64,000 bases of DNA from Neorhizobium galegae bv. orientalis str. HAMBI 540 (lineage in GTDB: Bacteria; Pseudomonadota; Alphaproteobacteria; Rhizobiales; Rhizobiaceae), in NCBI RefSeq assembly GCF_000731315.1, contig NZ_HG938353.1:1860001-1924000 (forward strand). Reading direction: 5' to 3'. How positions within the stretch are numbered: the stretch's first letter is position 1; every line of letters begins with the position of its first letter. The translations under genes were made by a program, and so were the position numbers. The notes under the pieces are model-generated. The model did no database searches. It saw nothing but the letters and a program-made list of their open reading frames with translations, and was not told the DNA's origin. This document shows, piece by piece, positions 3,142 through 50,171 of the stretch.

Positions 3142-4233
3142 TTATCCCGCCAGCCTCTTCTCCTCGGATTGAACCCGAGACCCGCCGTCGATATCCACCG
3201 CCGCAAAGGCCGCCGCGATGACCTCCGGTCCGGCACCCGGCCGGGTGGCGTCGGTGGAGAGGATCTGGCGAAACCGCCTTGCGCCGGCAAAACCCTGGAA
3301 CAGCCCGACCATGTGCCTTGTGACGTGATGCAGCCGCCCGCCCCGGCCGATCAGCTCTGCCGCATAGTCCGCCATCGTATCGCGCAGCGCCGGCCAGTCG
3401 ATCTCGGTGGAGGCCTCGCCCGCAATCCCGCCACCTGCCAAAAACGCATCCACGCCGGCGAGCATGCCGGTATTGTGATAGGCGGCGCGGCCGAGCATCA
3501 CCCCGTCCATATGGGCGAGATGGTTGGCCGCCTGTTCCAGATCGGCGATGCCGCCGTTGATGCCGATGAACACGTCCGGGTTTTCCCGCTTCATGGCATA
3601 GACCAGCTCGTAGTCGAGCGGCGGCACTTCGCGGTTTTCCTTCGGCGAAAGCCCCTGCAGCCAGGCCTTGCGGGCATGGATCCAGACCGCATCCGCCCCG
3701 GCGCCGATCACCCGCGCGAGAAAGTCCGGCAAAACGTCCGTCGGCTCCTGGTCATCGACGCCGATCCGGCATTTGACGGTGACCGGCACGCTCGACACCC
3801 GCTTCATCGCCGAAACGAGGTCCGCCACATGCCCCGGATCCCGCATCAGGCAGGCGCCAAAAGTGCCCGACTGCACCCGGTCCGAAGGGCAGCCGACATT
3901 GAGGTTGATCTCGTCATAACCGTAATCGGCAGCGATCCGCACCGCCTCGGCCAGCTTTGCCGGGTCCGAGCCGCCGAGCTGCAGCGCAACGGGATGTTCG
4001 GCCGGAGAAAAAGACAAGAGCCTGTCGCGCGGCCCATGAATGATCGCGTCGGCCACCACCATCTCGGTATAGAGCAGCGCATCCTTCGACAATTGCCGAT
4101 GCAGGAAACGGCAATGCCTATCCGTCCAATCGATCATCGGCGCAACGGCGAAAACGGGAGCCTTGAGATATTTACTTTTTTCTTTTTTTTCAGACTCTTG
4201 CGTCACTCTGTTCTCCGTTTGATTTACGCTCAT
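3142..4233 (-). CDS. dusA: tRNA-dihydrouridine synthase A, hosting the island attachment site
   Basis: 363 residues. FMN-dependent enzyme that reduces uridine to dihydrouridine in the tRNA D-loop. Visible are VAPMIDWTDRHCR at residues 30-42, NLNVGCPSDRVQSGTFGACL around residues 110-129 with the catalytic Cys115, and INGGIADLEQA with GVMLGRAAYHN for flavin binding. Residues 24-38 are encoded by the 43-bp sequence repeated at 49718-49760, so this copy was rebuilt by island integration and its first 23 codons and promoter are island-side DNA. The lysine/glutamate-rich residues 13-24 also look island-derived. The gene is intact and divergent from the integrase. Confidence 0.95.
   Translation of the reverse strand: MSVNQTENRVTQESEKKEKSKYLKAPVFAVAPMIDWTDRHCRFLHRQLSKDALLYTEMVVADAIIHGPRDRLLSFSPAEHPVALQLGGSDPAKLAEAVRIAADYGYDEINLNVGCPSDRVQSGTFGACLMRDPGHVADLVSAMKRVSSVPVTVKCRIGVDDQEPTDVLPDFLARVIGAGADAVWIHARKAWLQGLSPKENREVPPLDYELVYAMKRENPDVFIGINGGIADLEQAANHLAHMDGVMLGRAAYHNTGMLAGVDAFLAGGGIAGEASTEIDWPALRDTMADYAAELIGRGGRLHHVTRHMVGLFQGFAGARRFRQILSTDATRPGAGPEVIAAAFAAVDIDGGSRVQSEEKRLAG
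4121..4163. repeat. Island attachment site, integrase-proximal end
   Basis: 43-bp sequence within dusA beginning TCCGTCCAATCGATCATCGG and ending GGGAGCCT. It differs from the distal copy at 49718-49760 by one base (A to G). Homology between the two loci continues past the core to the dusA start codon but with many substitutions, so the near-identical part marks the likely crossover region. Confidence 0.85.
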
Positions 4234-4236
4234 TTT

Positions 4237-4305
4237 GGACCAAATCCGGCGATTTCGGCACTAGATTTGGTCCTCTGGACCAAATATAATACCCGTGGAC
4301 CAAAT
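4237..4305. promoter_or_regulatory. Four GGACCAAAT boxes between dusA and integrase
   Basis: GGACCAAAT occurs at 4237-4245, 4277-4285 and 4297-4305, and inverted (ATTTGGTCC) at 4265-4273. Boxes two and three form a perfect palindrome around TCT (4265-4285). They fill most of the 84 bp between the divergent dusA and integrase start codons. They could be operator sites for an island regulator or arm-type integrase/excisionase sites; the sequence alone does not decide. Any protein bound here would affect both dusA and int. Confidence 0.7.
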
Positions 4306-4317
4306 CAGGAGGCGGTC

Positions 4318-5388
4318 ATGGGCACTATCACCGCGCGCAAGCGCAAGAATGGCAGCGTTGGCTATAGAGCGCGCCTGCGGGTCATGCGGGATGGCGTGAC
4401 TTATCACGAGACGGAGACTTTTGACAGACGGCCGGCGGCCGCTGCGTGGATGAAGAAGCGCGAGCAGGAACTCGCGAAGCCGGGAGCTATCGCCGGCGCT
4501 ATTGCGGTTGACCCCACATTGGCGAAAGCCATCGATCGCTACACAGAGGAGTCCATCAAGGATATAGGCCGTACAAAGGCGCAAGTGTTGAAATCGATCA
4601 AAACCTACGACATCGCCAAGATGCCCTGCTCCACAATCAAGTCGAAAGACATCATCGAGTTTCTGCAGTCGCTAACCGGCAAACCGCAGACGGTTGGAAA
4701 CTATGCCAGCCACCTCGCTGCTGTCTTTGCAATCGCGCGACCGATGTGGGACTTCCGGCTCGATGAGCAGGAGATGAAGGACGCAATCAAGGTCGCTCGC
4801 CGCATGGGGATCATTTCCCGCTCCATCCAGCGGAGTCGAAGGCCCACGCTGGAGGAACTCGACCTACTGCTCGGCCATTTCATTGATCGCCGGAAGAAAA
4901 TTCCCCAAGCGGTGCCGATGCATAAAGTCATTGTCTTCGCTCTTTTCTCCGCGCGCCGCCAAGAAGAGATTACTCGCGTAGCGTGGAACGATTTTCAGAA
5001 GGAGCACAAACGTATCCTTGTCCGCGATATGAAGCACCCAGGAGAAAAGATCGGCAATGACATGTGGGTGGACCTCCCCGACGAGGCGGTTCGGATCATA
5101 GAAAGCATGCCCAGTAGCAAGCCCGAGATCTTCCCCTACTCCACCGATGCCATTACAGCCAACTTCACCCGCGCCTGCAAGTTACTGGATATCAAGGATT
5201 TACGCTTTCACGACCTGCGCCACGAGGGAGTTTCACGGTTGTTTGAGATGGGTTGGAATATTCCCCATGTTGCAGCGGTCAGCGGGCATCGATCGTGGGT
5301 CAGCCTTAAGCGATATACGCACATTCGCGAGACGGGCGATAAATATGCGGGCTGGCACGGCCTTCAGTTGGCCATCGACACCAAATAA
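4318..5388 (+). CDS. int: Tyrosine-type site-specific integrase (dusA-targeting)
   Basis: 356 residues from the ATG at 4318, which follows an AGGAGG ribosome-binding site; the open frame extends far upstream through dusA but is not coding there. The N-terminal domain (KNGSVGYRARLRVMRDG, then TFDRRPAAAAWMKKRE) resembles phage integrase arm-binding regions. The C-terminal catalytic domain shows the Arg in SARRQEEITRVAW, the HDLRH box, SGHRS and Tyr333 in KRYTHIR, completing the R-H-R-H-Y set. Its position beside the dusA 5' end fits integrases that recombine within dusA. Apparently intact. Confidence 0.93.
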   Translation: MGTITARKRKNGSVGYRARLRVMRDGVTYHETETFDRRPAAAAWMKKREQELAKPGAIAGAIAVDPTLAKAIDRYTEESIKDIGRTKAQVLKSIKTYDIAKMPCSTIKSKDIIEFLQSLTGKPQTVGNYASHLAAVFAIARPMWDFRLDEQEMKDAIKVARRMGIISRSIQRSRRPTLEELDLLLGHFIDRRKKIPQAVPMHKVIVFALFSARRQEEITRVAWNDFQKEHKRILVRDMKHPGEKIGNDMWVDLPDEAVRIIESMPSSKPEIFPYSTDAITANFTRACKLLDIKDLRFHDLRHEGVSRLFEMGWNIPHVAAVSGHRSWVSLKRYTHIRETGDKYAGWHGLQLAIDTK

Positions 5389-5453
5389 GTATTCGACCAG
5401 CCTACTGAACCACCGGTGCCATGCAGAACCGCGTAGCACGGAGAAGGGATTGG

Positions 5454-5518
5454 TTGCGGGGGCTCGCAACAAACCATTCCTGCGGCTGGTTGAAAAGCGT
5501 CTTCCAAAGCTAGCGGCC
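5454..5518 (+). repeat. Degenerate repeat, copy 1
   Basis: About 65 bp roughly 75% identical to 22515-22578. Both copies share one open frame (GARNKPFLRLVEKRLPKLAA here) ending in a stop soon after, so the unit looks like the decayed 3' end of a short gene. It lies just downstream of the integrase. Its identity is unknown. Confidence 0.55.
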
Positions 5519-5584
5519 TAGGCTCGCGACTTCGCCAGTTCAACTACCTGTTTACCCGCCCACCTATTCTATGTTGTGGCCCGC

Positions 5585-5794
5585 CTATTCTCCCCCATAT
5601 ACAACCGCGGTTGCACCGAAATTGGCTGGCATCCCAGCCACCGGCAAACCTGCCGTGCTTGGCCCCACGACTACCTCCATCCATTGATAGGTGCACATCG
5701 TACGCTGGACGGCCTTGTCTGCCGTTTCTTTCCAACATTGAAAAGGAAGATCTGAGCGGACGGGATGACGAGATACCCTTCGAAAAAGCTGCAC
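5585..5794 (-). pseudogene. Remnant of an amidase C-terminal region
   Basis: A 69-residue open frame contains TYQWMEVVVGPSTAGLPVAG, which resembles the conserved C-terminal stretch of amidase-signature enzymes (W-M-E/D-V-V-x-P-x-x-x-A-G-L-P-A-x-x-V-P). The catalytic Ser-Ser-Lys part is absent and the frame stops soon after. I read it as a fragment left by deletion. The rest of 5389-5888 holds only the degenerate repeat and no other gene. Recognition rests on one short motif. Confidence 0.4.
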
Positions 5795-5888
5795 TCATTC
5801 TTCGGAGAGCATCTTGTTGATGGACTGGCGCCCGCCCAGAAGGCCGGGGACTATTGATGACGTTTACGGGATCGGAAGCGAGGCAGAC

Positions 5889-6179
5889 CTACTTGATCCC
5901 GCCTATGATAAAGGACCGATAGTCCGCCCCGAGAAACCGATGTTTCACGGCAGCTTGGTATCCGGGACTGTCGTAAAAGGCGCGTGCCGCCTCCATAGTG
6001 GGAAAACTGACCATCACCACACCGTCGGGAGCTGCCCCCTCCAGAACGTCCTGAGGGCCGTGGGCGGCGAGTACGGTTCCTCCCGATTCCCCCAGCAATG
6101 GCCTCAACATTTCCGCATAAGTCTGCAGTTCAGCTGCATCGCGGCTACGTTCTTGAATGAAAATGGCATAAGCGGTCAT
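5889..6179 (-). CDS. DUF1330 domain protein
   Basis: 96 residues covering the whole DUF1330 ferredoxin-like fold: MTAYAIFIQE at the start, GPQDVLEGAAPDGVVMVSFP in the middle and EAARAFYDSPGYQAAVKHR near the end. Members are small cytoplasmic proteins of unknown biochemical role, often beside oxidoreductases. It lies 228 bp downstream of the OsmC gene in the same direction and may be the last gene of the TetR-controlled set. Confidence 0.85.
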   Translation of the reverse strand: MTAYAIFIQERSRDAAELQTYAEMLRPLLGESGGTVLAAHGPQDVLEGAAPDGVVMVSFPTMEAARAFYDSPGYQAAVKHRFLGADYRSFIIGGIK

Positions 6180-6407
6180 GTTAAATCTCCTTAAGAGTTC
6201 CGGACCCGGTCGGTTGCAATTGACGACCTTGCTTAAGACGGGTCGTTTGAAGGCTGCGCGGGCTTGTCGAGGTCGAAGACGATATCGATCGCAGGGCGGA
6301 TTTCGAGCTACGCTAGCCGTTGACGGGGGATATGCGGGAGCCGGATCTCCAGATCAGGGCGCGACGATCGTCGTCCTTTTCCGTCATATCCGCCTCCCGC
6401 ATCGACA

Positions 6408-6833
6408 TCAGTTCGTCGTAACGGTGATGGCCACGTCGATGTTGCCCCTTACCGCGTTCGAATAGGGGCACGTCGCATGCGCCGCCTGTACGATCTCCTC
6501 AGCCGCTGCCTGATCGAGACCGGTGATCGCGACGTCGAGCGCCACTGAAAGGACGAAACCACCGTTGCCATTTGGTTGCAAACCCACGTCGGCCACCACC
6601 ACGATGTCGGTATCCTTCACCCTGGTGGCCTTGTTGCGGGTGATGTGGATCACCGCATTTTCGAAGCAGGCTGCATAGCCGGCCGCGAACAGTTGCTCCG
6701 GATTGGTCGCACCTCCCTTACCGCCCATCGTCGTGGGCAGCGCCAGCGGAAGATCAAGAAGGCCGTCTTCGCTGCGGACGGTACCGCTGCGGCCACCGAT
6801 CGCTGTGACTTTGATGCTGTAGAGTGCGCTCAT
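6408..6833 (-). CDS. Ohr/OsmC family organic hydroperoxide resistance protein
   Basis: 141 residues from the ATG at 6833; the longer open frame overlaps the SDR stop region. Ohr enzymes reduce organic hydroperoxides through two conserved cysteines, visible here in YAACFENAV and HATCPYSNAVRGN. GGKGGATNPEQLFAAGYAAC is the family signature. It lies 13 bp after the SDR gene, in the same direction, so the two are probably co-transcribed. Lipoyl-dependent recycling is family knowledge, not seen here. Confidence 0.92.
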   Translation of the reverse strand: MSALYSIKVTAIGGRSGTVRSEDGLLDLPLALPTTMGGKGGATNPEQLFAAGYAACFENAVIHITRNKATRVKDTDIVVVADVGLQPNGNGGFVLSVALDVAITGLDQAAAEEIVQAAHATCPYSNAVRGNIDVAITVTTN

Positions 6834-6846
6834 CGTCGGGCTCCTG

Positions 6847-7725
6847 TCACAGCATCTCTGACATGCCAAACGAAGTCAGCATCTCGTTCTGAATCGGGCG
6901 TACGGCCTCGTTCAGTCGATGAACGCCGAAGTCCAGACCTTCGGGCATGACGACCGTGCGCAATGGACGCCGCTCCGTGGCCTCGACCAGCTCCGCGATG
7001 GCATCGGCCACGCGCTGGGGCCGCGGGGGATTGGCCTCATCTTGTCCGTCATTGGCGTGCGCCTTGATCTGGCCCGGGATTGCGGCGACCTCTCCGTAGG
7101 ATGCAAGCACCGTCTGGTCGGATGGCTCAGGGCTCGACGAAATGAGGTTGCTCGGGAATGGCCCCGGCTCGACGATGACGGAGTCGATTCCAAAGCCCTT
7201 CAGTTCGTAACGATACGCTTCGGCAAGCCCCTCGAGCGCAAACTTGCTCGCGGAGTAGGTGCCGAAGAACGGAAAAACCACCCGACCCATCAGGGATGTC
7301 ACGTGCACGAGGAGTCCGCTGCCGGCGGCACGCATATGCGGGAGAACGGCGCGGTCTGCCCGTACGGCGCCGAAGAAATTCACCGCAAACAGCCGTTCGA
7401 TGTCTGCCACCGTGTAGGCTTCGGTGACCCCGACGGGCATAAGTCCGGCGTTGTTGACCAGAACATCGATCTTTCCGTGCTGCTTGAAGATCTGGTCGAT
7501 CGTGGAATTGACCGAGGCCTCGTCGGCGACGTCCATTTCAAGGACTTGCAGCACATGTCCCTCGGCCTTCGCCGCGTCGATAAGGTCCTTTCGGACCTTG
7601 GCATTTCTTCCCTCGACGTCCCGCATGGTCGCAACCACCGTATGGCCCCGCCTTGCGAGTTCCAGCACCGTGAGGTTTCCGAAACCACTGCTTGCGCCTG
7701 TGACAACAACGACTTTTCCGCTCAT
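6847..7725 (-). CDS. Short-chain dehydrogenase/reductase (SDR) family oxidoreductase
   Basis: 292 residues from the ATG at 7725, preceded by GAGAGAGAAC. The Rossmann dinucleotide motif TGASSGFG lies at about residues 9-16, NNAG at about 90, and the catalytic Ser and Tyr-x-x-x-Lys in the SLMGRVV and YSASKFALEG segments; PGPFPSNL follows. The family reduces or oxidises carbonyl/alcohol substrates with NAD(P)H. It is the first gene of the unit divergent from a TetR regulator, so it may process a reactive aldehyde or ketone. Substrate unknown. Confidence 0.93.
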   Translation of the reverse strand: MSGKVVVVTGASSGFGNLTVLELARRGHTVVATMRDVEGRNAKVRKDLIDAAKAEGHVLQVLEMDVADEASVNSTIDQIFKQHGKIDVLVNNAGLMPVGVTEAYTVADIERLFAVNFFGAVRADRAVLPHMRAAGSGLLVHVTSLMGRVVFPFFGTYSASKFALEGLAEAYRYELKGFGIDSVIVEPGPFPSNLISSSPEPSDQTVLASYGEVAAIPGQIKAHANDGQDEANPPRPQRVADAIAELVEATERRPLRTVVMPEGLDFGVHRLNEAVRPIQNEMLTSFGMSEML

Positions 7726-7768
7726 CTTCAGTTCTCTCTCTTTGAAATCCTTTGGCCGCAAACCACCA

Positions 7769-7823
7769 ATAGACAGACCTGTATGTATTTGCAATCGCAA
7801 AATTTACAGAATAGTCTGTCTAT
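7769..7823. promoter_or_regulatory. Inverted repeat operator in the SDR/TetR divergent promoter
   Basis: ATAGACAGAC (7769-7778) and GTCTGTCTAT (7814-7823) are perfect inverted copies 35 bp apart, between the start codons of the SDR and TetR genes. Half-sites of the TAGAC/GTCTA type are common TetR-family targets. The right arm lies 29 bp before the regulator's ATG, consistent with autorepression. Confidence 0.6.
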
Positions 7824-7852
7824 ATGTCGGCCAAGGATCTGAGGTGACGGAA

Positions 7853-8476
7853 ATGCAGACGCGCAGCGTGCTTGAGTTTGTAGATGTGGATGGAAAATCG
7901 CTCGATGCCCTCGCCCCGCGAGAACGCATATTGAAGACTGCGTCTGACCTGTTTTACCGGCTTAGCATCAACTCTGTCGGGATAGACCGGATCATCGCCG
8001 AGAGCGGCGTGGCGAAGATGACTTTTTACAAGCACTTCCCCTCGAAGGCCACCCTCATCGCTACCTATCTGCGCCACAAGAGAGTCATCTGGTTCCAGAT
8101 GCTCGCGACCGCGACCGAAAAGCCTGGCCTATCGCCGCCTGAGCGGGTGCTCGCGATTTTCGACGCGATAGATGAACCTCTCAGGGCAAAAACTTTCCGC
8201 GGTTGTTCGTTTGCGAGAGGATTGGCAGAATTCGGACCCGAGGCAAACACTCCAGAGGTGCAGGCGACAATTGCCGAGTATTTCACGGAACTGCATGAAT
8301 TCGTTGCATCGCTGATTAAGCCGCTCGCTTTAGATAAGCCTGAGCAAGCCGTCATCCAAATCCTGTCACTCGTCCAGGGTTCGTTTGTTATGGCACAATC
8401 CATTCCTAACGGTGGAATTGTTGAAGCAAACCGCGATGCAGCCAGACTCCTGTTGGAGCATGGGTTGTCCGATTAA
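7853..8476 (+). CDS. TetR family transcriptional regulator
   Basis: 207 residues from the ATG at 7853 with a GAGGTGACGG ribosome-binding sequence. The DNA-binding domain is clear (PRERILKTASDLFYR, then SINSVGIDRIIAESGVAKMT and FYKHFPSKATLIATYL, residues about 18-70), and the C-terminal domain resembles the AcrR/NemR-like group. It is divergent from the SDR-OsmC-DUF1330 set and probably represses it until an electrophile or oxidant binds. Confidence 0.9.
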   Translation: MQTRSVLEFVDVDGKSLDALAPRERILKTASDLFYRLSINSVGIDRIIAESGVAKMTFYKHFPSKATLIATYLRHKRVIWFQMLATATEKPGLSPPERVLAIFDAIDEPLRAKTFRGCSFARGLAEFGPEANTPEVQATIAEYFTELHEFVASLIKPLALDKPEQAVIQILSLVQGSFVMAQSIPNGGIVEANRDAARLLLEHGLSD

Positions 8477-8589
8477 TTCCTTCGGGCAAGCGCCTGTTGG
8501 CGTCTCCCCTCTCTTCGAGCAGCAAACCTTCGAACAGCCTGCTAAAAATCAATGCGCGACGCCCGGGTCGCTGGGAGTGGTATTGCCGC

Positions 8590-8973
8590 TTACGCGGGAT
8601 CCTGCGACACCGCAGCACGTGCGTCACGTCGCATAAAAGCCCAGTCAATCAGTTCCGCCATGGATGGACCAAGGGCGATCCCCATCTCACTGAGCGCATA
8701 CTCTACCCTGGGCGGAACCTGAGGAAACACGGTTCGCGTGACGATACCGTCTTTCTCCAGTTCTTTGAGTTGCTGGATGAGCATTTTCTGGTTCACGCCC
8801 TCTACACGCTTCTCAAGTTCCGAAAATCTTAGCGGCCCTTTCGCACCAAACAGCTGGCAGATGATGACAATTTTCCACTTGCCCTCAAGGACCTGAAGAG
8901 CGTCCCTGGTCGCTGCTGCCCAGATCAACTGCTGCTTGGGATCGTCGCAGCGCCAGTCTCTCTCTATAGCCAT
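8590..8973 (-). CDS. HxlR family winged-helix transcriptional regulator
   Basis: 127 residues. LQVLEGKWKIVIICQLFGAK, FSELEKRVEGVNQKMLIQQL and KELEKDGIVTRTVFPQVPPR form the HxlR winged-helix domain almost end to end. Such regulators often sense electrophiles or redox state. It is divergent from the F420-reductase-like genes; a GTGGGT-T-ACCCAC palindrome lies 12 bp upstream of its start codon. Confidence 0.92.
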   Translation of the reverse strand: MAIERDWRCDDPKQQLIWAAATRDALQVLEGKWKIVIICQLFGAKGPLRFSELEKRVEGVNQKMLIQQLKELEKDGIVTRTVFPQVPPRVEYALSEMGIALGPSMAELIDWAFMRRDARAAVSQDPA

Positions 8974-8985
8974 ACTTACCTCCGG

Positions 8986-8998
8986 GTGGGTTACCCAC
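8986..8998. promoter_or_regulatory. Palindrome upstream of the HxlR gene
   Basis: GTGGGTTACCCAC is a perfect 6-bp palindrome around a single base in the 130-bp divergent region between the HxlR gene and the reductase-like gene. It is a candidate HxlR operator; no binding evidence. Confidence 0.45.
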
Positions 8999-9103
8999 TT
9001 TCAAGTCGGTTCTTGCCGTATCATCTAGCTATACCTATTCTTCGGAGTATGAAAAGTCACGTCTCCGTCGGAGTGCGTTGAGTTCAGTACTCTCAGCAAG
9101 GGA

Positions 9104-9844
9104 ATGACAATGAAGGTCGGAATCATTGGAGCAGGCAACATCGGTTCGACACTGGCACGCAAGCTCGCGGCGGCAGGGCACGAGATCAAGCTTGCCAATT
9201 CCAAGGGGCCGGAATCGATCCGCGACCTTGCTGCCGAAGTTGGTGCGACGGCAACGACCCGGGAAGATGCCGTAACAGGTGTGGATGCGGTGATCCTCTC
9301 CATCCCGTTCGCAGCGCATCGCGATCTCGCAGCGTTGTTTCAGACCGTTCCCGAGAACGTCGTCGTTATCGACACATCCAACTATTATCCGTACCGCGAC
9401 GGTGCGATCGCCGAGATCGATGACGGCAAGCCGGAGGCGGTCTGGGTCACCGAGCAGATCGAGCGACCCATCATCAAGGCGTGGAACGCGGTGCTTGCCG
9501 AGACCCTTGCCAAGAAAGGCGCAGACAAGACGCAACCCGGCCGCATCGCCCTTCCGGTCGCGGGCGACGATCCTGAAAAGAAATCGCGCGTGCTGGAACT
9601 GGTCGAGGCGACAGGCTTCGACGCCTTCGATGCCGGGGGCCTTGCGACCTCATGGCGACAGCAGCCGGGCACGCCTGCCTATTGCACGGAACTGACGGCT
9701 GACGAGCTGAAAACGGCTCTTGGAAAAGCAGACCCGAACCGCTCGGCGGACAACCGCGAGACTCTGATCAAGGGTTTCATGGAAGGGGGCGAGAGCCTGA
9801 CCCACGACGACATCGTCGCCCGCAACCGCGCCGTAACAGCGTGA
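9104..9844 (+). CDS. NAD(P)-binding, F420-dependent NADP reductase-like oxidoreductase
   Basis: 246 residues. KVGIIGAGNIGSTLARKL at the N-terminus is a Rossmann dinucleotide-binding loop, followed by LANSKGPES, where NADP contacts are expected, and VVVIDTSNYYPYRDG. The family includes F420H2:NADP oxidoreductases and many F420-independent relatives; F420 use is not established here. Two starts are possible (9104 or 9110). A frameshifted paralogue follows 17 bp downstream, indicating tandem duplication. Confidence 0.85.
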   Translation: MTMKVGIIGAGNIGSTLARKLAAAGHEIKLANSKGPESIRDLAAEVGATATTREDAVTGVDAVILSIPFAAHRDLAALFQTVPENVVVIDTSNYYPYRDGAIAEIDDGKPEAVWVTEQIERPIIKAWNAVLAETLAKKGADKTQPGRIALPVAGDDPEKKSRVLELVEATGFDAFDAGGLATSWRQQPGTPAYCTELTADELKTALGKADPNRSADNRETLIKGFMEGGESLTHDDIVARNRAVTA

Positions 9845-9861
9845 GCAGGACAGGAAACATC

Positions 9862-10607
9862 ATGAAAGTTGGTATTCTTGGCGCAGGCCACATCGGAAAA
9901 CGCTGGTCCGCGAACTCAGCAGAACCGGGTACGATGTCAAAGTGGCAAACTCACGTGGTCCTGAAACGATCGATGCATCAATATTTGCATCCGGTGGACG
10001 CGCAGTAACGATCGAGCAGGCAGTCGAGGACGTCGACATCCTGATCCTTTCCATACCGCTCAACCGCCTGCCCGAAATTGCGCCCAAAATTGCCGCTCTT
10101 CCAAAGGACGTCGTCGTTATCGACACGTCCAACTACTATCCGATGCGCGACACCGAGATCGCCGACATCGAGGCGGGCGAAGCCGAGAGCGTCTGGGTAT
10201 CCAGACAACTCGGCCGACCAGTCGCAAAGGCGTGGAATGCAATCGGTTCCGATTCTTTCGCCCGACTGGGAAAACCTGCGGGGCATCCGGATCGGATCGC
10301 CATACCGGTCGCTGCAGACAATGAACGCGACCGACTTGTCGCTATGGCGCTTGTGGGTGATACGGGCTTCGACGCGGTCGATGCCGGACCGCTTTCGGAG
10401 TCATGGCGCCAGCAGCCAGGATCTCCGGTTTACTGCACAGACCTCACGGCCATCGAGATTCCCGATGCACTCGCCGCCGCGGAAAGATCCCGGTTGCCAA
10501 AGCGGCGAGACCTTTCCGTCGCTGCGGTTCAGGAGAGGCTTGGCGATACGAAGAGCAATCCCGACGCGGGCTTTCTCGTGCGTTTGAACAGGGCCCTGTT
10601 CCTGTAG
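9862..10607 (+). pseudogene. Frameshifted paralogue of the F420-reductase-like gene
   Basis: The reading frame opens at 9862 (MKVGILGAGHIGK) and goes out of frame at the A-run at 9898-9900, meeting a stop at 10006-10008. The next frame from 9903 restores the homologous sequence (LVREL, GYDVKVANSRGPETID) and runs to 10607. One base missing from the AAAA run explains it exactly, since GGAAAAACG would read Gly-Lys-Thr. The downstream part is well conserved (VVVIDTSNYYPMRDTEIADI). Either a recent pseudogene or a sequencing error in a homopolymer. Confidence 0.85.
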
Positions 10608-10700
10608 ATCGCCACTTGGTAGCAACGGATATAGTCCCCGGTAAAAAACTGATGACCCGCGGCCCGTAAGCCGCGGGGGCGCCGGAACATGGGATCGATA

Positions 10701-12023
10701 ATGTCGCGTAAAATGATGATCGGAATGCATTTCGGAAACGGTTATGGCTCCCAGCCGGGAGCATGGCGCATGGCCGGGGTCGATCCCCGGAACTACACGA
10801 ACTTCGACAGCCAGGTGCGCTACGCCCAGGCAGCGGAACGGGGCAAGTTTCAGTTCCTGTTCATGCCGGACTTTCCGGTGTTGACCGGCAATGTCGAAAC
10901 CGAAGCGCCGATGATTAACATCGATCCGATGATGACGCTCGCGGCCGTCGCGCGCGGGACCGAACGGATCGGATTGGTCGCGACCGGTTCGACCACCTTC
11001 AACGAGCCCTATAATCTGGCGCGCCAATTCAAGGCCCTCGACCTGATGAGCCACGGCCGGGCGGGATGGAACGCGGTTCCGACCAGCGATCCCGCGATCG
11101 CGGCCAATTACGGTCGCGACTTGCCGTCCCGCAGCGAAAAGTATCAGCGGCTTCACGAGTCGATCCAGATCGTTCAGGCACTGTGGGGCAGCTGGGAAAA
11201 GGGAGCGTGGCTGCACGACGCCGCATCGGGGCGCTTCGCGGACCCTTTCAGGATCCAGCCCATCAATCTACGAGGAAATCATGTCGGTTCAAGCGGTCCG
11301 CTGCCCCTCCCGCCGTCAGAACAGGGGCAGCCCGTCATCTTCCAGGCAGGCGGGGGCGACCAGGGATTGGAGGTCGCGGCCCGTTATGCAAGCGGCGTGA
11401 TCGGGGCGGTCTACACCATCGAGGCCGCCCGTGCCCAGCGCATGGCGCTCCGCAACGCTGCGGAACGTGTTGGTCGCGATCCTGACGAGATAAAGTTTTT
11501 CCCCGGCCTCATGACGACGATCACGCCCGACAGACGAAGCGGGCTTGATCGCCGGATTGCGGTCAGCGGGGAAACCTTCCCGCAGCGCGTAGAATATCTC
11601 GGGCAGATGCTGGGATTGCAGCTGTACGCGGCACGGCTCGACGAGCCGCTGTCAACGGCTCAACTCGCGGCTGCTCGTCCGTCTCCGCGCGATCCCCGCT
11701 CAGCCCATGCCCTGAATATCGCAAGAGAGGGCTGGAGCCTGCGGGATATTCTGGCGCATGGCGTGATCGACTATCACCCGGTCATCGCCGGCCCCGCGGT
11801 CGAAGCTGCCGACCATATGCAGACCTGGTTCGAGGCGGGTGCGGCCGATGGCTTCTGGCTGTCGCCCGACGTCTACGAGGACGGCATCGATGCGCTCGTC
11901 GATGAGGTGGTCCCTCTCCTTCAGGATCGCGGACTATTTCATCGGGATTATGAGGGAACGACCCTGCGCGACCATCTCGGCGCACCGCCCCAGTACGGGC
12001 TTGATACGCGTATCATGCTGTGA
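10701..12023 (+). CDS. NtaA/SnaA/DszA-type FMN-dependent monooxygenase
   Basis: 440 residues from the ATG at 10701 (MSRKMMIGMHFGNGYGSQPG, the usual family start); an ATG at 10689 adds four residues. Flavin-dependent two-component monooxygenases of this bacterial luciferase-like group oxidise nitrilotriacetate, sulfonates or thioethers with FMNH2 from a partner reductase. Family features seen: WNAVPTSDPAIAANYGRD, VIFQAGGGDQGLEVAARYAS and DGFWLSPDVYEDGID. No FMN reductase lies next to it, though the F420-reductase-like gene just upstream might serve. Substrate unknown. Confidence 0.9.
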   Translation: MSRKMMIGMHFGNGYGSQPGAWRMAGVDPRNYTNFDSQVRYAQAAERGKFQFLFMPDFPVLTGNVETEAPMINIDPMMTLAAVARGTERIGLVATGSTTFNEPYNLARQFKALDLMSHGRAGWNAVPTSDPAIAANYGRDLPSRSEKYQRLHESIQIVQALWGSWEKGAWLHDAASGRFADPFRIQPINLRGNHVGSSGPLPLPPSEQGQPVIFQAGGGDQGLEVAARYASGVIGAVYTIEAARAQRMALRNAAERVGRDPDEIKFFPGLMTTITPDRRSGLDRRIAVSGETFPQRVEYLGQMLGLQLYAARLDEPLSTAQLAAARPSPRDPRSAHALNIAREGWSLRDILAHGVIDYHPVIAGPAVEAADHMQTWFEAGAADGFWLSPDVYEDGIDALVDEVVPLLQDRGLFHRDYEGTTLRDHLGAPPQYGLDTRIML

Positions 12024-12226
12024 ACCGAAAATAGGCGAGCGCCAGATCGCTTTGCGTATCAATTTGCTTGGTCGTCTGAATGCCGGGTTTCCCCGACTCC
12101 AGACGATGATGGTCGAGAGCGGCTTGTCCGACGTCACAGATCATGGCTTTGAATCCTTGGGAGAGCAGGAAACCCTTGAAGAGAAAGCGTCAGGAGCTTC
12201 ATGAACGCTCCTAACGTCCGATACCA

Positions 12227-13390
12227 CTATTCGGCGAGTTCGCGCATGACCTTGATCAGGTCGGATTTGCCTTCGAAGCCGATGCCCGGCAGTTCCGGCA
12301 TGGTGATGTGGCCGTCGATGACCTCGACGCCGTCCGGGAAGCCGCCATAGGGCTGGAAGAGATCTGGATAGCTCTCGTTGCCGCCCAGCCCAAGGCCGGC
12401 GGCGATATTGAGCGACATCTGGTGGCCGCCATGAGGGATACAACGCGACGGTGACCAACCGAACTGGCGCAGCACGTCTAGCGTACGCAGGTACTCGACG
12501 AGACCGTATGACAGGGCGCAGTCAAACTGCAGGAAGTCGCGGTCAGACCGCATGCCGCCGTAGCGCAGCAGGTTACGGGCATCCTGATGGGAGAAGAGGT
12601 TCTCTCCGGTCGCCATCGGGGCATCGTAGAATTCCGAGATGGCGGCCTGCAGCGCGTAGTCCAGCGGGTCGCCGATTTCTTCGTACCAAAAGAGCGGATA
12701 GTCTCGCAGCATCTTGGCGTAGGCGATGCCGGTCTCCAGATCGAAGCGGCCGTTCGCATCCACCGCAAGCTTCGCCTCGGATCCGATTTCCTCCAGCACG
12801 GATTCGATGCGGCCGCGGTCCTCGTCGATCGAGGCGCCGCCGATCTTCATCTTCACGACATTGTAGCCGCGGTCGAGATAGCCGCGCATCTCCTTGCGGA
12901 GCGCGCTGTTGTCCTTGCCCGGATAGTAGTAGCCGCCGGCGGCGTAGACGAAAACCTTCGGATTGGCTTCCCGGCCCTTCATGTCGGCGAGATGGCGGAA
13001 CAGCGGCTTGTCCTCGATCTTGGCGACCGCATCCCAGACCGCCATGTCGAGCGTTCCGACCGCAACCGAGCGCTCGCCGTGACCGCCAGGCTTTTCATTC
13101 ATCATCATAGTCGACCAGATCTTGTGCGGATCGAGGTTGGTGCCGGCGTCGTTGATCAGGCTGTTCGGGTCTGCCTGCAGGATGCGGTCCTTGAACCGTT
13201 CGCGGATCAGGCCGCCCTGGCCATAACGGCCGTTCGAGTTGAAGCCATAGCCGACGACGCGACGGCCGTCCTTGACAACATCGGTGACGACGGCGACGAG
13301 GCTGGCTGTCATCTTCGAGAAGTCGATATAGGCATTGCGGATGGGCGAAGCGATGGGCTTAGTGACTTCGCAGACGTCGACGATACGCAT
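12227..13390 (-). CDS. tarD: D-tartrate dehydratase (enolase superfamily)
   Basis: 387 residues. Dehydrates D-tartrate to oxaloacetate in the cytoplasm. The KMKIGGAS segment places the catalytic base at Lys182. Asp211, Glu237 and Glu263 are metal ligands, and His320 (CIPHGGHQ) is the acid. All five sit two residues before the positions I recall for the characterised Bradyrhizobium enzyme (Lys184, His322), so this is a close orthologue. It lies at the end of a minus-strand unit after tartrate dehydrogenase and the Tct transporter genes, separated from them by a 309-bp gap. Confidence 0.93.
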   Translation of the reverse strand: MRIVDVCEVTKPIASPIRNAYIDFSKMTASLVAVVTDVVKDGRRVVGYGFNSNGRYGQGGLIRERFKDRILQADPNSLINDAGTNLDPHKIWSTMMMNEKPGGHGERSVAVGTLDMAVWDAVAKIEDKPLFRHLADMKGREANPKVFVYAAGGYYYPGKDNSALRKEMRGYLDRGYNVVKMKIGGASIDEDRGRIESVLEEIGSEAKLAVDANGRFDLETGIAYAKMLRDYPLFWYEEIGDPLDYALQAAISEFYDAPMATGENLFSHQDARNLLRYGGMRSDRDFLQFDCALSYGLVEYLRTLDVLRQFGWSPSRCIPHGGHQMSLNIAAGLGLGGNESYPDLFQPYGGFPDGVEVIDGHITMPELPGIGFEGKSDLIKVMRELAE

Positions 13391-13699
13391 TTGAATCTCC
13401 GGTTCAGTTTTTAGGTAGGTAGCGAATGTTGTCTCTCTGCCGCACCTTCGCAGCGATCAGACGAGAGGACTAATGCCTTGGTAGCCGAGCGAGGCCGCGC
13501 ATTCCAATGCTCTGACGATTTGTATTGGTGCCGTTTCAGCATTGCCAGTTCTCGCAATTTGATGAAATAGAATGAGAACCTGGGCGGACGATAAGGGTAC
13601 TTGGCTGAATCGCTCTATCCGCCTCCATAGAATCGAATACCCGGCGATGCCAATTCGGCTTCATTGAGCGGCCGGCATATTCAGCGCCACGGCATGTCA
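13391..13699. other. Intergenic region upstream of tarD
   Basis: 309 bp without a supported gene between two co-directional tartrate genes. It contains a GTTCTC/GAGAAC dyad (13548-13553 and 13574-13579) that could be a regulator site or a processing hairpin. tarD may have its own promoter here. Confidence 0.4.
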
Positions 13700-14785
13700 T
13701 CAAAGGGTTTCCGCAACGGCCTTTCCGCAAGTGACGGTGTCCGCATCTCCGCCCAGGTCGCGTGTCCGCAGCCTTTGGTCCGCGAGAACGGTCTCGATGC
13801 CAGCCATCACGGCAGCGCTGGCTTCATACTCTCCGAGATGGTCCAGCATCATCGCTGCCGACCATATCTGTCCGATAGGGTTGGCAATGCCCTGTCCCGC
13901 AATGTCCGGCGCTGATCCGTGAACGGGTTCGAACAGGGAGGGAAATTTCCGCTCCGGATTGATATTTCCCGAAGGCGCGATGCCGATCGTTCCCGTGCAG
14001 GCAGGCCCAAGATCAGAGAGGATGTCACCGAACAGGTTGGACGCCACCACCACATCGAAGCGGTCAGGGTTCAGCACGAAATGGGCGCAGAGGATATCGA
14101 TATGGTATTTGTCCCAGGTGATATCCGGATAGGATTTGGCCATCTCCTCGACGCGCTCGTCCCAATAGGGCATCGAAATGGAGATGCCATTCGACTTGGT
14201 CGCAGAGGTGAGCCGTTTGCGCGGGCGGGTCTGGGCGAGGTCGAAGGCGAATTTCAGAATCCGATCGACGCCGATCCGCGTCATCACCGTTTCCTGGAGA
14301 ACCGTTTCCCGCTCGGTTCCCGGGAAGATGCGCCCGCCGACCGATGAATATTCGCCCTCGGTGTTCTCCCGCACGACGTAGAAATCGATATCACCAGGTC
14401 CTCGCCCGGCCAGGGGCGAGGTGACGCCGGGCATCAGCCGGACCGGCCGCAGGCTCACATACTGGTCGAACTCCCTCCGGAACTGGATCAGCGAGCCCCA
14501 GAGCGAAATATGATCGGGAACGATCTCCGGCCAGCCAACCGCACCGAAGAAGATCGCGTCATGGCTGCCGATCTGCGCCTTCCAGTCCTCCGGCATCATC
14601 TGTCCGTACTTCACGTAGTAGTCGCAGGAGGCAAAGTCGAAAGTGTCGATCTGGAGTTCGAAGCCGAACTTTTTGGATGCCGCTTCAAGAACGCGGAGGC
14701 CCTCTGGTACGACTTCCTTGCCGATGCCATCACCGGCGATGGAGGCGATCTTGTGTATGCGGTTGGTTCTGTTTTCCAAAGTCAT
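13700..14785 (-). CDS. ttuC: Tartrate dehydrogenase/decarboxylase (isopropylmalate dehydrogenase family)
   Basis: 361 residues. NAD- and metal-dependent enzyme acting on tartrates and D-malate, giving oxaloglycolate, glycerate or pyruvate depending on isomer. IAGDGIGKEVVPEGLRVLE at the N-terminus, the FRREFDQYVSLRPVR substrate segment, ENTEGEYSSVGG, TSATKSN and GTIGIAPSGNINPERKFPSL are all typical of the TtuC/TDH subgroup. It follows the tctA-like gene after 12 bp, so transport and catabolism are probably co-transcribed. Confidence 0.92.
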   Translation of the reverse strand: MTLENRTNRIHKIASIAGDGIGKEVVPEGLRVLEAASKKFGFELQIDTFDFASCDYYVKYGQMMPEDWKAQIGSHDAIFFGAVGWPEIVPDHISLWGSLIQFRREFDQYVSLRPVRLMPGVTSPLAGRGPGDIDFYVVRENTEGEYSSVGGRIFPGTERETVLQETVMTRIGVDRILKFAFDLAQTRPRKRLTSATKSNGISISMPYWDERVEEMAKSYPDITWDKYHIDILCAHFVLNPDRFDVVVASNLFGDILSDLGPACTGTIGIAPSGNINPERKFPSLFEPVHGSAPDIAGQGIANPIGQIWSAAMMLDHLGEYEASAAVMAGIETVLADQRLRTRDLGGDADTVTCGKAVAETL

Positions 14786-14797
14786 GCTCCAATTCTA

Positions 14798-16306: not shown

Positions 16307-16309
16307 AGC

Positions 16310-16762
16310 CTAAACTCCCAACCAGGGGCCGATAAGACGGACGGGCAGCCCGAGGCCATAATAGAAGACGCCCAGACAGAACACGGTAATGCCGAGCGTG
16401 ATGGCGAGAACGACGAGCGGCCTTTGCCCGGTCGCCGCTGTTGCCGCAGACAACGAGGTGAGCGCAACCGCTGGCACAAACCCCAGGCCACGGACGGTCA
16501 GGCCGAACAGGATCGGCGCGATGATGATGGCGGCCAGAGCCCGCAAGGGTGCGATCTGCGGGTGAAAGCCTTCAGTGTCCCTGAGGGCCTTTATGCCGAT
16601 GGCGATGCCGATCACCGTGATGACGATCGACAGGATCAGAGGGAAATAGCCCGGGCCCATTCTGAGTGCAGAGCCGACGTCCATTGTAAACACGGACGAA
16701 ATGCCGAACCCGATCCCGACAGCCAGCAGCGTGCCGGAAGCGGCAACATTCTTGATATCCAT
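16310..16762 (-). CDS. tctB: Tripartite tricarboxylate transporter, small permease (TctB)
   Basis: 150 residues with four predicted spans and the TctB signature ALRMGPGYFPLILSIVITVI around residues 32-51. It is the small membrane subunit working with TctA. It sits between tctC and tctA with gaps of 51 and 3 bp, as usual for this system. Confidence 0.9.
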   Translation of the reverse strand: MDIKNVAASGTLLAVGIGFGISSVFTMDVGSALRMGPGYFPLILSIVITVIGIAIGIKALRDTEGFHPQIAPLRALAAIIIAPILFGLTVRGLGFVPAVALTSLSAATAATGQRPLVVLAITLGITVFCLGVFYYGLGLPVRLIGPWLGV

Positions 16763-16813
16763 GGAAGTCCTCCGTTCGACTGCGGGCTTTACCCCGCAGT
16801 CGAACCATCACCG

Positions 16814-17779: not shown

Positions 17780-17794
17780 TTCTTCCTCCCATTT

Positions 17795-17879
17795 GCCGTC
17801 GTCTCCAACAACGGCACTCCTCAACGCAACATTCGCGAACAAGCGATTGACGGTCCAATGCCGTTTCGGCTTCAATTGG
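17795..17879. promoter_or_regulatory. LysR-box region of the tartrate operon
   Basis: GCCGT (17795-17799), eleven bases, ACGGC (17811-17815) is a T-N11-A LysR-type box 15 bp upstream of tctC. A second dyad, CCAAT (17855-17859) with ATTGG (17875-17879) enclosing GCCG/CGGC, lies just upstream of the regulator start. One activation and one autoregulation site would fit. Confidence 0.6.
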
Positions 17880-17900
17880 TGCCGGAAGTGAGAGGATGAG

Positions 17901-18818: not shown

Positions 18819-18914
18819 GCGTAACGTAGCCGCCGGACGTGCGGGCTCTTGATATGCAATGTACCAACCACCGTCTAAGGCGTGATCTAATCCCATCCGT
18901 AGGAGAAAATCGAA

Positions 18915-45201: not shown

Positions 45202-46787
45202 TGTTCCGGCGTGCAAATTTGACCCCGTTGGCGGGGTAATCGGCGTCCAATTTTGCCCCCCCTCAGATTTCATCTGACCATCCGGCTTTTGACGGCGGAT
45301 GGAGCGGGAGTTGAAGCGAGTGGATACGATTGCGCGTGTTCGACGGGCCTTCCATGTGCAGGGCTGGTCGGTGAAGAAGATTGTCCGGGAACTCCACGTG
45401 TCGCGCAACACGGTTCGCAAGATTCTGCGTTCCGACGAGACCGATTTTGCCTATGAACGCGAGCGACAACCGCTGCCGAGGGTCGGAGCCTGGAAGGCCG
45501 AGATCGAGCGGTTTCTGGTTGCCAATGAGGGCAAGCCGTCGCGTGAACGGCTAACGCTGATCCGGATTTACGAGGAGGTTCGGGCACTCGGCTACGATGG
45601 CAGTTATGACGCGATCCGGCGATACGCCAAGACCTGGGCGAAGAACCGGGGAGCCGTGACGGCGGAAACCTATGTGCCCCTCTATTACGCGCCAGGAGAA
45701 GCCTACCAGTTCGACTGGAGCCACGAGATCATTCTGGTCAACGGGGTGACAACGACCGTGAAGGTCGCGCACGTCCGGCTCTGCCACAGCCGGATGATGT
45801 TCGCCCGAGCCTATATGCGTGAGAGCCAGGAGATGGTGTTCGATGCCCATGACAAGGCCTTCGCCTTCTTCCGTGGCACCTGCACGCGCGGCATCTACGA
45901 TAACATGAAGACTGCGGTCGAGGCGGTGTTCGTCGGCAAGGAGCGACAATACAATCGCCGCTTCCTGCAGATGTGCAGCCACTATCTAGTCCATCCCGTT
46001 GCCTGCACGCCCGCATCCGGATGGGAGAAGGGACAGGCCGAGAACCAGGTCGGTCTCGTGCGCGAGCGCTTCTTCACGCCACGCCTACGGGTCAAAAGCC
46101 TGGAGGAGCTGAACGTCTGGCTGCTCGACAAATGCGTCGCCTACGCCAAGGCACACCGCCATCCCGAGCAGACCGAGCGGATAATCTGGCAGATTTTCGA
46201 GGAGGAGCGCGGCAGCCTGGTGCACTACGTTGGACCGTTCGATGGCTTCCACTGCGTTCCCGCCTCGGTGTCGAAGACCTGCACGGTCCGCTTCGACAAC
46301 AACAAATACTCGGTCCTATCGACGGCGGTCGGCCGCCCTGTTGAGGTTCACGCCTATGCCGAGAAGATCGTCATCAGGCAGGACGGCGTGAACGTCGGTG
46401 AGCATCCTCGTTGCTTTGGCCGTGGCGAGGCGATCTACGATCCCTGGCATTACGTCCCTGTTCTGGCTCGTAAACCCGGTGCTTTGCGCAATGGTGCGCC
46501 GTTCCGGGAATGGGTCTTACCCGCAGCGATGGAGAAAGTGCGCCGGTGGCTGAAGAGCGTCCATGATGGTGATCGGCAGATGGTCACCATCCTCGGCTGT
46601 GTTCCCACCGACGGTCTGGCGGCTGTCGATGCTGCCTGCCAGGAGGCTTTGGATCACGGCGTCTGCTCAGCCTCGGTGATCATCAACATTCTGGCCCGCA
46701 GCCGTGATCCGGCTCCGGCCGCAACCCTGCAAACCCCGGATGCGCTGCGCCTGACCCATGAACCGGTCGCCGATTGCGCACGCTAAC
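45202..46787 (+). mobile_element. IS21-family element remnant (left end plus istA, istB missing)
   Basis: The left end starts at about 45202 (TGTTCCGGCGTGC) and carries two transposase-binding-like repeats, CGGCGTGCAAATTTGACCCC (45207-45226) and CGGCGTCCAATTTTGCCCCC (45241-45260), 17 of 20 matching, as expected for IS21 multiple terminal repeats. istA follows. The istB helper gene and the right end are absent; sequence after the istA stop belongs to another gene. A deletion probably removed them. Confidence 0.8.
45299..46786 (+). CDS. istA: IS21-family transposase IstA
   Basis: 495 residues. HTH near the N-terminus (GWSVKKIVRELHVSRNTVRK), then a DDE integrase core with YQFDWSHEI (first Asp), GIYDNMKTAVEA (second Asp) and GWEKGQAENQVGLVRERF (Glu). 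The C-terminus ends at ADCAR, slightly short of typical IstA tails, because the element is cut at this point. IstA needs the IstB ATPase for efficient transposition, so this copy is probably inactive on its own. Confidence 0.92.
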   Translation: MERELKRVDTIARVRRAFHVQGWSVKKIVRELHVSRNTVRKILRSDETDFAYERERQPLPRVGAWKAEIERFLVANEGKPSRERLTLIRIYEEVRALGYDGSYDAIRRYAKTWAKNRGAVTAETYVPLYYAPGEAYQFDWSHEIILVNGVTTTVKVAHVRLCHSRMMFARAYMRESQEMVFDAHDKAFAFFRGTCTRGIYDNMKTAVEAVFVGKERQYNRRFLQMCSHYLVHPVACTPASGWEKGQAENQVGLVRERFFTPRLRVKSLEELNVWLLDKCVAYAKAHRHPEQTERIIWQIFEEERGSLVHYVGPFDGFHCVPASVSKTCTVRFDNNKYSVLSTAVGRPVEVHAYAEKIVIRQDGVNVGEHPRCFGRGEAIYDPWHYVPVLARKPGALRNGAPFREWVLPAAMEKVRRWLKSVHDGDRQMVTILGCVPTDGLAAVDAACQEALDHGVCSASVIINILARSRDPAPAATLQTPDALRLTHEPVADCAR

Positions 46788-49270: not shown

Positions 49271-49717
49271 CCCTTAGACGACGTCTCGGTGCCTGACGTC
49301 GGCGGCAATATCCAATTTGAAAAATTCAAGGATCGAAAGTTTCAACCCATGGGGTCGCAGTACTGGGAGACTCTCAGTCGGGTGCGCACTACTGGCGCGG
49401 ACCCATCGATCTGAACGCACATGAGTTTAGTTTGGCGCAAGGGCCTCTACCGCGCTTTCCGCTGTTGGACAGGGTCACCTGATAAGGTCTAGGCTCGCCT
49501 TGATGTTTCGCAGTTCCCTCGTGCGCGCGGCCACGATTTGGCGCGAGCGCTTCTTGGCGGAGCGACCGGTCTTCGGCATTGCTGACTTGATAGCTGCCAG
49601 CCCGGCCCCAAAAGCGGCAATCGCGTTTCCATAATACGCCGTTCAATCAAAAAAGTTGGTACTTGGTACAATTAAGTTCGCGTATTGGATTGTTATATAT
49701 AAAGAAACTCGCGCTGA
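49271..49717. other. Distal island end: gene-free region with a coding relic
   Basis: No intact gene. On the minus strand an open frame ending at 49475 reads AYYGNAIAAFGAGLAAIKSA and then MPKTGRSAKKRSRQIVAART before RELRNIKASLDLIR and stop; its composition looks coding, so it may be a small basic protein (34 residues from the internal Met) or the end of a lost gene. AT-rich DNA (49650-49710) leads into the attachment repeat. Confidence 0.35.
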
Positions 49718-49760
49718 TCCGTCCAGTCGATCATCGGCGCAACGGCGAAAACGGGAGCCT
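49718..49760. repeat. Island attachment site, distal end
   Basis: 43-bp copy of the dusA segment at 4121-4163 with one substitution. It is followed by further, weaker dusA 5' homology up to a start codon at 49829 and then by integrase homology. Confidence 0.85.
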
Positions 49761-49829
49761 GGAAATATATATTTTCTTCTTGTTTTACAGACCTTGCGTC
49801 ACTCTGTTCTCCGTCTTGTTCAAGCTCAT
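49718..49829 (-). pseudogene. dusA: Displaced 5' fragment of dusA
   Basis: From the ATG at 49829 it reads MSLNKTENRVTQGL and then stops; compare MSVNQTENRVTQES in the intact gene. Past the stop, another frame encodes APVFAVAPMIDWTD, the dusA core. The fragment ends at 49718 where homology stops. It is the promoter-proximal piece left at the far end of island 1, since decayed. Confidence 0.8.
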
Positions 49830-49856
49830 CTTGTACCAAATCCGTCCGTTTCGAGC

Positions 49857-50171
49857 ATGGGCGCTATCACCCCGCGCGCGCGAAAAGATGGCAGCGTCAG
49901 CTACATGGCACGCGTGCGAGTTATGCGGGATGGCGTGACTTATCACGAGACGGAGACTTTTAACAGACGGCCGGCGGCCGCTGCGTGGATGAAGAAGCGC
50001 GAGCGGGACTTGCAAAGCCGCGCCGCCGCGTTGCGGCGGCTCGGGGATGCTGTCGGCATTGGCAATCTCGCCTCTTCGTCGAGCTATACGATCCGCCTTA
50101 AGTCCGCGCACTTGCCCTTGGATAGAAGCACCGGACTGCTCTTCAGCCCGGCGCGGTGTTGTTGCTTATGA
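49857..50171 (+). pseudogene. Truncated second integrase
   Basis: From the ATG at 49857 the first ~50 residues (MGAITPRARKDGSVSYMARV, then RRPAAAAWMKKRERDLQ) are a clear homologue of the intact integrase, sharing VMRDGVTYHETETF exactly. Homology stops near 50010 and the frame ends at 50171 with unrelated sequence; the catalytic domain is gone. Only one degenerate box (GTACCAAAT, 49833-49841) remains upstream where the intact copy has four. It marks the start of a second, older dusA island. Confidence 0.85.

Follow-up and report, generated by a model that had tools for sequence, protein, structure and literature searches.

The window analysed here, a 64-kb stretch of the genome of Neorhizobium galegae HAMBI 540 (G000:C1:1860001-1924000), contains dusA, the gene for tRNA-dihydrouridine synthase A, and beside it what are very probably two dusA-specific integrative islands stacked at one site, with island A lying between dusA and an older island B. 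The genome amounts to 6.46 Mb in two contigs (4,647,962 and 1,807,065 bases) and has been described as a 4.65-Mb chromosome plus a 1.81-Mb chromid (PMC4085339). Own coordinates count from the window start, and the scans for cores and island ends were run to 124 kb. dusA occupies 3142-4233 on the minus strand (Pfam Dus, E=5e-77), and its first ~24 codons (4164-4233) come from island A. Within its 5' part lies a 44-bp core (4120-4163, plus strand), the proximal attachment site of A, which recurs with one mismatch at 49717-49760 (plus strand), at an offset of 45,597 bp; this distal core would serve as the right attachment site of A and the left one of B. It is the same repeat that the initial annotation placed at 4121 as a 43-bp dusA segment found again 45.6 kb away with one mismatch. 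The likeness extends past the core (4164-4257 versus 49761-49853) and is followed by an integrase start at each side (ATG at 4318 and at 49857), so that the order of dusA 5' end and then integrase start, noted earlier for the distal copy, is found at both left ends. When the 391-bp left end was compared by BLAST with the whole genome, three of the 37 rows fell at the two core sites with E values of 2e-39 or better and the remaining 34 had E values of 0.63 or worse, so the similarity is not due to chance. A third core past 64 kb, which the initial annotation had raised, was found neither in the whole genome by this BLAST nor in a mismatch scan of the first 124 kb of own coordinates, where the next-best sites match 26 of 44 bases.

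The full-length dusA-associated integrase of island A (4318-5388, plus strand; 356 codons; PF00589, E=7e-15) adjoins the 5' end of dusA, which is read from the minus strand. It is a tyrosine recombinase in which the motifs ARRQ (residue 212), HDLR (298), GHRS (323) and RYTH (332) follow one another in the usual order, the catalytic residues being assigned by eye. One genome scan with this protein gave 45 loci, 30 of them at 78-85% identity (from Rhizobium, Devosia, Rhodobacteraceae and others). DusA was matched on the locus in 28 of these 30, L097 and L115 showing the 5' part alone, and L102 and L108 had no DusA match at the thresholds applied. Among plasmids, four records matched and none covered 80% of the integrase. 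Between dusA and the integrase gene there are four GGACCAAAT/ATTTGGTCC iterons (4237-4305, plus strand; starts at 4237, 4265, 4277 and 4297), of which one further exact copy exists in the window, at 28314. The iterons were surveyed in 28 of the 30 clade members, L115 and L116 being excluded as partial; at least three copies, with two mismatches allowed, lie within 110 bp before the integrase gene in 26 of them. A strict pattern, picked after viewing the sequences, has at least three copies in 19 of the 28 and at most one in 50 shuffles of each member. All 23 members with at least two strict iterons use a single shared variant, GGACC or GTACC, and this uniformity within each member looks like that of binding sites co-evolving with their binder. 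The iterons may be arm sites of the integrase, or an operator.

At the other end of A, a tandem motif TTGGTAC-TTGGTAC (TTGGTACTTGGTAC, 49656-49669, plus strand) stands 61 bp before the distal core. No other copy occurs up to own 124 kb (with up to two mismatches on the plus strand and one on the minus strand). An identical or one-mismatch tandem is also found 60-61 bp before the distal core in the congeners G364, with cores 123 kb apart (a span not necessarily filled by a single island), and G023, with cores 20.6 kb apart; there was none in the stretches examined of G363, G355, G001, G002 and G018. The presence of the tandem here and at the right ends of two other islands argues that A is a precise unit. 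The iteron variant is GGACC at the left end of A and GTACC at its right end, likewise in G364, and GTACC at both ends in G023.

Beyond the distal core, island B begins with a displaced dusA 5' end (49761-49856, minus strand), whose frame is broken here and which is open and in use in G363. An integrase stub follows (49857-50027, plus strand; codons 1 to ~53-57), and the same stub stands beside dusA in G363. In agreement with the earlier description of an integrase cut after about 50 residues, this copy is homologous to integrase A up to codon ~52-57 and then no longer; no further integrase piece was detected beyond it to 124 kb at E 1e-3. The interval between the dusA segment and the integrase start is shorter than in A and has one iteron-like site, of GTACCAA type, at 49833. 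As a complete island B falls short, since its integrase is reduced to ~55 codons and only its left end is present.

We then compared the locus across the genus. The sample comprises 57 genomes, own included; 35 congeners entered a dusA-anchored comparison with 3.9-80 kb of the dusA locus per congener, and the layers were ordered by comparing the own locus, with 15 kb added on the left and 60 kb on the right, with congeners by BLAST. The DusA N-terminus is of the island type here (...KAPVFAVAPMIDWTDRHCR) versus the native type MYADALK.G.KIFAVAP... in congeners, and both types are distributed across the 57 genomes, pointing to a dusA 5' end replaced by the island. In G363, the closest congener compared (pieces outside B at 90-96%), dusA is joined directly to B and A is absent, with none of its cargo at dusA beyond ABC-type similarity. 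After B, G363 has a second integrase stub (codons 7-38), then own 68,962-71,774 and then the block that starts at 72 kb. In G355 an integrase match (codons 1-79) precedes 11 kb without match to the own genome and then own 71,951 onward, and in G002 dusA joins own 71,999 over ~270 bp; neither A nor B is at dusA in these two. Both islands are likewise absent at dusA from the stretches of the other congeners, save short or 66-73% pieces; for the cargo of A these are short or 66-72% pieces in G001, G023 and G025. Relative to G002 the insertion amounts to ~68 kb. Of this, A accounts for 45.6 kb and B reaches to ~58.6 kb; the part from 58.6 to 69.0 kb is specific to the own genome, and that from 69 to 72 kb is a remnant common to the own genome and G363.

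The comparison also locates the former neighbour of dusA. It corresponds to own ~87,030-87,120, either directly or across at most 15.6 kb, in 20 of the 35 congeners and to own ~87,750 in G009, G028 and G030, and G002 and G022 have the 72-87 kb block. The other 10 of the 35 show no such neighbour in the stretch examined, and all of them have an integrase or an integrase stub beside dusA. The layout drawn in the initial annotation, an intact island inserted beside an older one at the same site, is thus borne out by relatives with dusA joined to B alone (G363) or with neither island (G355, G002); what had to be refined are the limits, as the part of B shared with G363 ends at ~58.6 kb and the former neighbour of dusA is found past the window end, at 72.0 or 87.0 kb.

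Since G363 has dusA followed by B without A, the simplest order is that A was added in front of an existing B. The comparison shows that the older island B gave dusA a 5' end and kept ~55 integrase codons, and that A supplied another 5' end, displacing that of B. The dusA 5' segment of B is out of frame here and open in G363, as expected once A took over. An alternative is that A was already present in the common ancestor of the own genome and G363 and was then precisely excised in the latter. The apparently intact integrase of A and its matched cores are compatible with this; however, the segment in G363 would then have stayed open by chance through a time of relaxed selection, so that excision is the less simple account and we consider it decidedly unlikely. 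That A and B form one island, with the left end of A duplicated locally to give the distal copy, is scarcely credible: between A and B, 84 of 87 bases are identical in integrase codons 22-50 and 48 of 63 in codons 1-21, as gene conversion or duplication might leave them, but the left ends agree at 76% over 4176-4257, the stub matches integrase A in 75-81% of residues, and G363 has B alone at dusA with its own following genes, which in our view refutes it. Two stacked islands remain the preferred reading. Some observations speak against it: a right end of B, be it a third core or a right-end motif, was not found to 124 kb, so that the case for B being a bounded island is made by its left end and the comparison, and no transfer gene was recognized among the 30 open reading frames (ORFs) of A that were scanned.

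The stacking at dusA is supported and also recurs. A second island left end was seen in six of the 57 genomes, as a second dusA 5' copy in G000, G018, G023, G364 and G017 (the latter on a separate small contig) or as a second integrase stub in G363. That dusA acts as an accretion point, as the initial annotation suggested, had been put forward earlier in the literature (PMC4482086). N-terminus types were assigned by eye in all 57 genomes, in 17 of which just ~1.5 kb upstream of dusA was viewed. The APVF/DPVF type was found in 20 of 57: G000, G001, G002, G008, G011, G012, G017, G018, G023, G025, G031, G035, G198, G355, G356, G363, G364, G368, G369 and G371. We take this type as island-supplied; it is shown to be so where an integrase or a stub follows, for G002 the assignment rests on DNA likeness up to the integrase start (72% over 143 bp), and for G031, G356, G368, G369 and G371 on the N-terminus alone. 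A full-length integrase is next to dusA in seven genomes (G000, G007, G010, G017, G018, G364 and G365), just four of which belong to the 20; the N-termini of G007, G010 and G365 are of other kinds, which means that islands supply further types as well. Short stubs stand beside dusA in eight (G001, where it is frameshifted, G008, G011, G012, G035, G198, G355 and G363), and further remnants are a weak stub in G025 and a piece ending at codon 199 in G023. Outside the genus, G279 of the same family has a full integrase and, 45.3 kb from it, an integrase stub next to which dusA is weakly matched (E 0.005). In the family, 52 of 297 genomes gave integrase matches at E<=1e-10, many of them other integrases at ~30% identity.

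The kind of island is already known. Farrugia et al. (2015) described genomic islands with a dusA-associated integrase (DAI), a tyrosine recombinase beside the dusA 5' end, with direct-repeat attachment sites in dusA; these supply a new dusA 5' end, are typically 30-60 kb long and carry diverse cargo including metabolic genes, and accretion of further elements at dusA was suggested (PMC4482086). Island A resembles them in its tyrosine recombinase adjoining the dusA 5' end, in the attachment repeats within dusA and in the replaced 5' end, and also in not being conserved at that place in related strains, here the 35 congeners as well as G363, G355 and G002. As far as that report was consulted, it describes islands one per dusA and mentions neither integrase stubs at the gene nor layers put in order through relatives. 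A homologue of prtN occurs in 60 of 94 DAI islands and is thus not universal (PMC4482086); there was none among the Pfam matches of the 30 ORFs of A, although no search dedicated to it was made. In Vibrio, elements related to SGI1, which IncC plasmids can mobilize, occur in tandem at dusA (IEVpaBan1a/1b), and the promoter and N-terminus that the element supplies to dusA were demonstrated by a lacZ fusion in E. coli (PMC8409611). The tandem state is alike, but no mobilization gene was recognized among the ORFs of A that were scanned. Integrative and conjugative elements (ICEs) of Mesorhizobium also insert at dusA (PMC8627217); they share the site and are conjugative, whereas no conjugation genes were seen among the same ORFs. 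The ordered layers are a well-resolved example of this kind of island, and what look less ordinary are the short integrase stubs retained beside dusA in eight congeners and the probable movement of B after it had been stubbed. We found no report of integrase stubs or iterons at dusA islands in the literature searched by title and abstract start.

How such layers may arise can be outlined as follows. The integrase of A would have recombined the dusA core with an attachment site (attP) carrying GGACCAAAT iterons on its left arm and TTGGTAC on its right arm. Each island would give dusA its start codon and upstream DNA and, because of this, deletions in a dead island would be tolerated only up to the captured DNA, leaving a short integrase stub as a fossil. 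The next island would insert in front of the stub and layers would accumulate. As far as seen, the cargo is metabolic, and it varies from genome to genome. Published suggestions of accretion at dusA and of a captured gene start can in this way be put together into an ordered history, from native to captured, decayed to a stub and re-invaded, in which stubs and replaced N-termini are the fossils of past insertions.

The stubs themselves raise the question of where the deletions stop. Across our comparisons the short stub matches end between codons 36 and 87. In eight of the nine dusA-adjacent stubs, codons 24-38 are better kept than both flanks, whereas nine full-length integrases show no such peak, their leave-one-out agreement being flat at 0.93-0.99 over codons 1-80. 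G012 and G035 have lost most of the flanks, yet 36 and 37 of 39 bases remain. This 39-bp stretch, which outlasts the rest of the integrase gene in dead islands of congeners, corresponds here to 4389-4427 (plus strand; integrase codons 24-37) and may be control DNA of dusA, antisense to the integrase gene. A Wilcoxon test on the dusA-adjacent stubs gave p = 0.0039, an optimistic value since the nine stubs are not fully independent, the codons were picked post hoc and one of the nine full-length reference integrases, L096, has an in-frame stop. Perhaps these codons are the best preserved because dusA has come to depend on their DNA. It is a tentative and, on balance, doubtful proposal that control DNA of dusA reaches, in antisense, into integrase codons ~24-38, which in A lie ~155-195 bp upstream of the dusA start; equally doubtful is the joint proposal that host selection on dusA would preserve the stretch and set the cut point of dead integrases, while stubbed islands could still move. 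If the preserved DNA were a control region of dusA, a host gene would have domesticated part of the integrase gene of a mobile element.

An alternative, which in our judgement could equally well be true or false, is that stubs end near codon 50 through detectability or conservation of the N-terminal region, with no selection on the stub. One genus scan did use an N-terminal query, and synonymous conservation at codons 24-38 is unremarkable in 27 near integrases. Several further observations agree with this account and count against selection for dusA. In four of five displaced stubs, too, codons 24-38 are the best preserved, which weakens the link to current use by dusA unless the displacement is recent. 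Five dusA loci have only the scar and no integrase stub, so stub DNA is not always kept: the 39-bp element is at background (18-19 of 39 bases) in G002, G356, G368, G369 and G371, which are of the island type and without integrase, the background being 17-21 of 39 in 30 windows of one congener. No promoter-like site was detected when 4100-4600 was scanned for sigma-70 promoters. The family scan also holds longer N-terminal integrase pieces (G160, codons 2-152; G318, codons 3-232) and C-terminal ones (G235, codons 253-350; G156, codons 288-349), be they at dusA or elsewhere. On the other side, the peak in the stubs contrasts with the flat profile of the full-length integrases, the bases kept in G012 and G035 have largely lost their flanks, and in the dusA-anchored set five of the six partial integrases (G001, G008, G011, G012, G035 and G023) end before codon 80, with G025 as a weak seventh beside dusA. 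In other loci without integrase, the 39-bp element scored 22 of 39 in G031, 27 of 39 in G025 and 19 of 39 in G022, which has another N-terminus type.

An embedded DNA element was also sought through suppression at synonymous sites in 27 integrases (that of A and those of 26 of the 45 loci; L096, L113 and L129 were skipped because of stops or frame, and distant or partial integrases were excluded). The observed to expected ratio reached 1.54-1.64 in windows within codons 26-40, below that of codons 1-10 (1.82) and 91-105 (1.81-1.94). As higher values occur at other codons, the test gives no support to such an element, and the candidate was set aside.

Island B seems to have a history of its own. 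Its body (50028-58579) encodes LysR, SBP_bac_5, Lyase_1 and ABC ATPase proteins (Pfam, ORFs scanned), and own 49717-58579 matches G363 at 98.35% over 8,865 bp, so that the part shared with G363 ends at ~58.6 kb. In 500-bp windows, the 17 from 50,261 to 58,579 are all at 97.6-99.4% and the first window of B (49,761-50,260) is at 95.1%; in the flanks, dusA windows are at 89.3-95.6% and those of 69-92 kb at 91.0-97.9%, except for the final, short window at 78.7%. Where the high similarity stops on the right is hidden, as both genomes differ beyond 58,579. The two share the B stub with nearly the same breakpoint. Because B is more alike between the two species than its flanks are, an already stubbed B has probably moved between species after the loss of its integrase, via the integrase of another island or by homologous recombination. 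A slower evolution of B instead of transfer would also give high identity, and we consider it less likely. The term "immobilised", used for the older island in the initial annotation, was thus too strong. Near full-length matches to B 51308-55383, at 80-86%, are found in G010, G361, G019 and G369.

To the right of B, the own-specific stretch begins at 58580 and goes on through the end of the window at 64000 to ~68.96 kb, with SCO4226-like, sulfatase, TetR and oligopeptide-type ABC genes. These 10.4 kb (58580-68962) occupy the spot where G363 has its second integrase stub. That stub (L203 12721-12816; G363:C139:19720-19815) is more decayed, has no core or second dusA 5' copy, and is probably a further layer not found in the own genome. 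The 15-kb block at own 71,950-87,040 (L012, L013), with an AI-2E-type permease, DUF4142 and phosphate transporters, is present whole or in part in G002, G022, G355 and G363, whereas those others of the 35 congeners that show the 87-kb neighbour lack it there. It may be an oldest layer whose ends have eroded, although neither a core nor a remnant of a dusA 5' end was seen at them. Among the relatives, L087 (G017:C36, a 6-kb contig) has a second dusA 5' remnant and an integrase match over codons 18-356, in a genome with another full integrase at dusA, and G367:C13:76894-76959 has a 22-residue match to the DusA core part (residues 26-47), away from dusA, which is possibly a displaced copy. An Rfam scan of the window gave no match.

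The cargo of island A spans 5455-49655. Thirty hand-picked ORFs, not all those of A, were scanned against Pfam, and 27 matched families, chiefly of enzymes, transport and regulation. They include a TctABC transporter, MR/MLE and IPMDH-type enzymes, ALDH, oligopeptide-type ABC systems, DAO, FGase, M19 dipeptidase, S58 peptidase, class IV aminotransferase, MFS and regulators. There is one transposase (45299-46786, plus strand; HTH_23, rve and Mu-transpos_C_2 domains), which we take to be of the IS21 type. None of the 30 encodes a phage structural protein, so A does not qualify as a prophage on this count, and none a relaxase or a type IV secretion protein; the description of the cargo as metabolic and not phage-like agrees with this result. 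Within A, a 63-bp direct repeat (78%) is found at 5455-5517 and 22515-22577. The 14.2-kb module 5455-19652, which starts exactly at this repeat, has a 96% copy in G371 (C3:24888-39011), a genome with no match to the integrase N-terminus and with no tRNA near the copy. The cargo of A thus looks composite, as this module starts at the repeat and is present at another place in G371; together with the B stretch in four congeners, it indicates that cargo modules are also found away from dusA. In G371 the A module also has, at a distance of 1.9 kb, a 194-bp piece from the right edge of the own-specific stretch (68783-68976).

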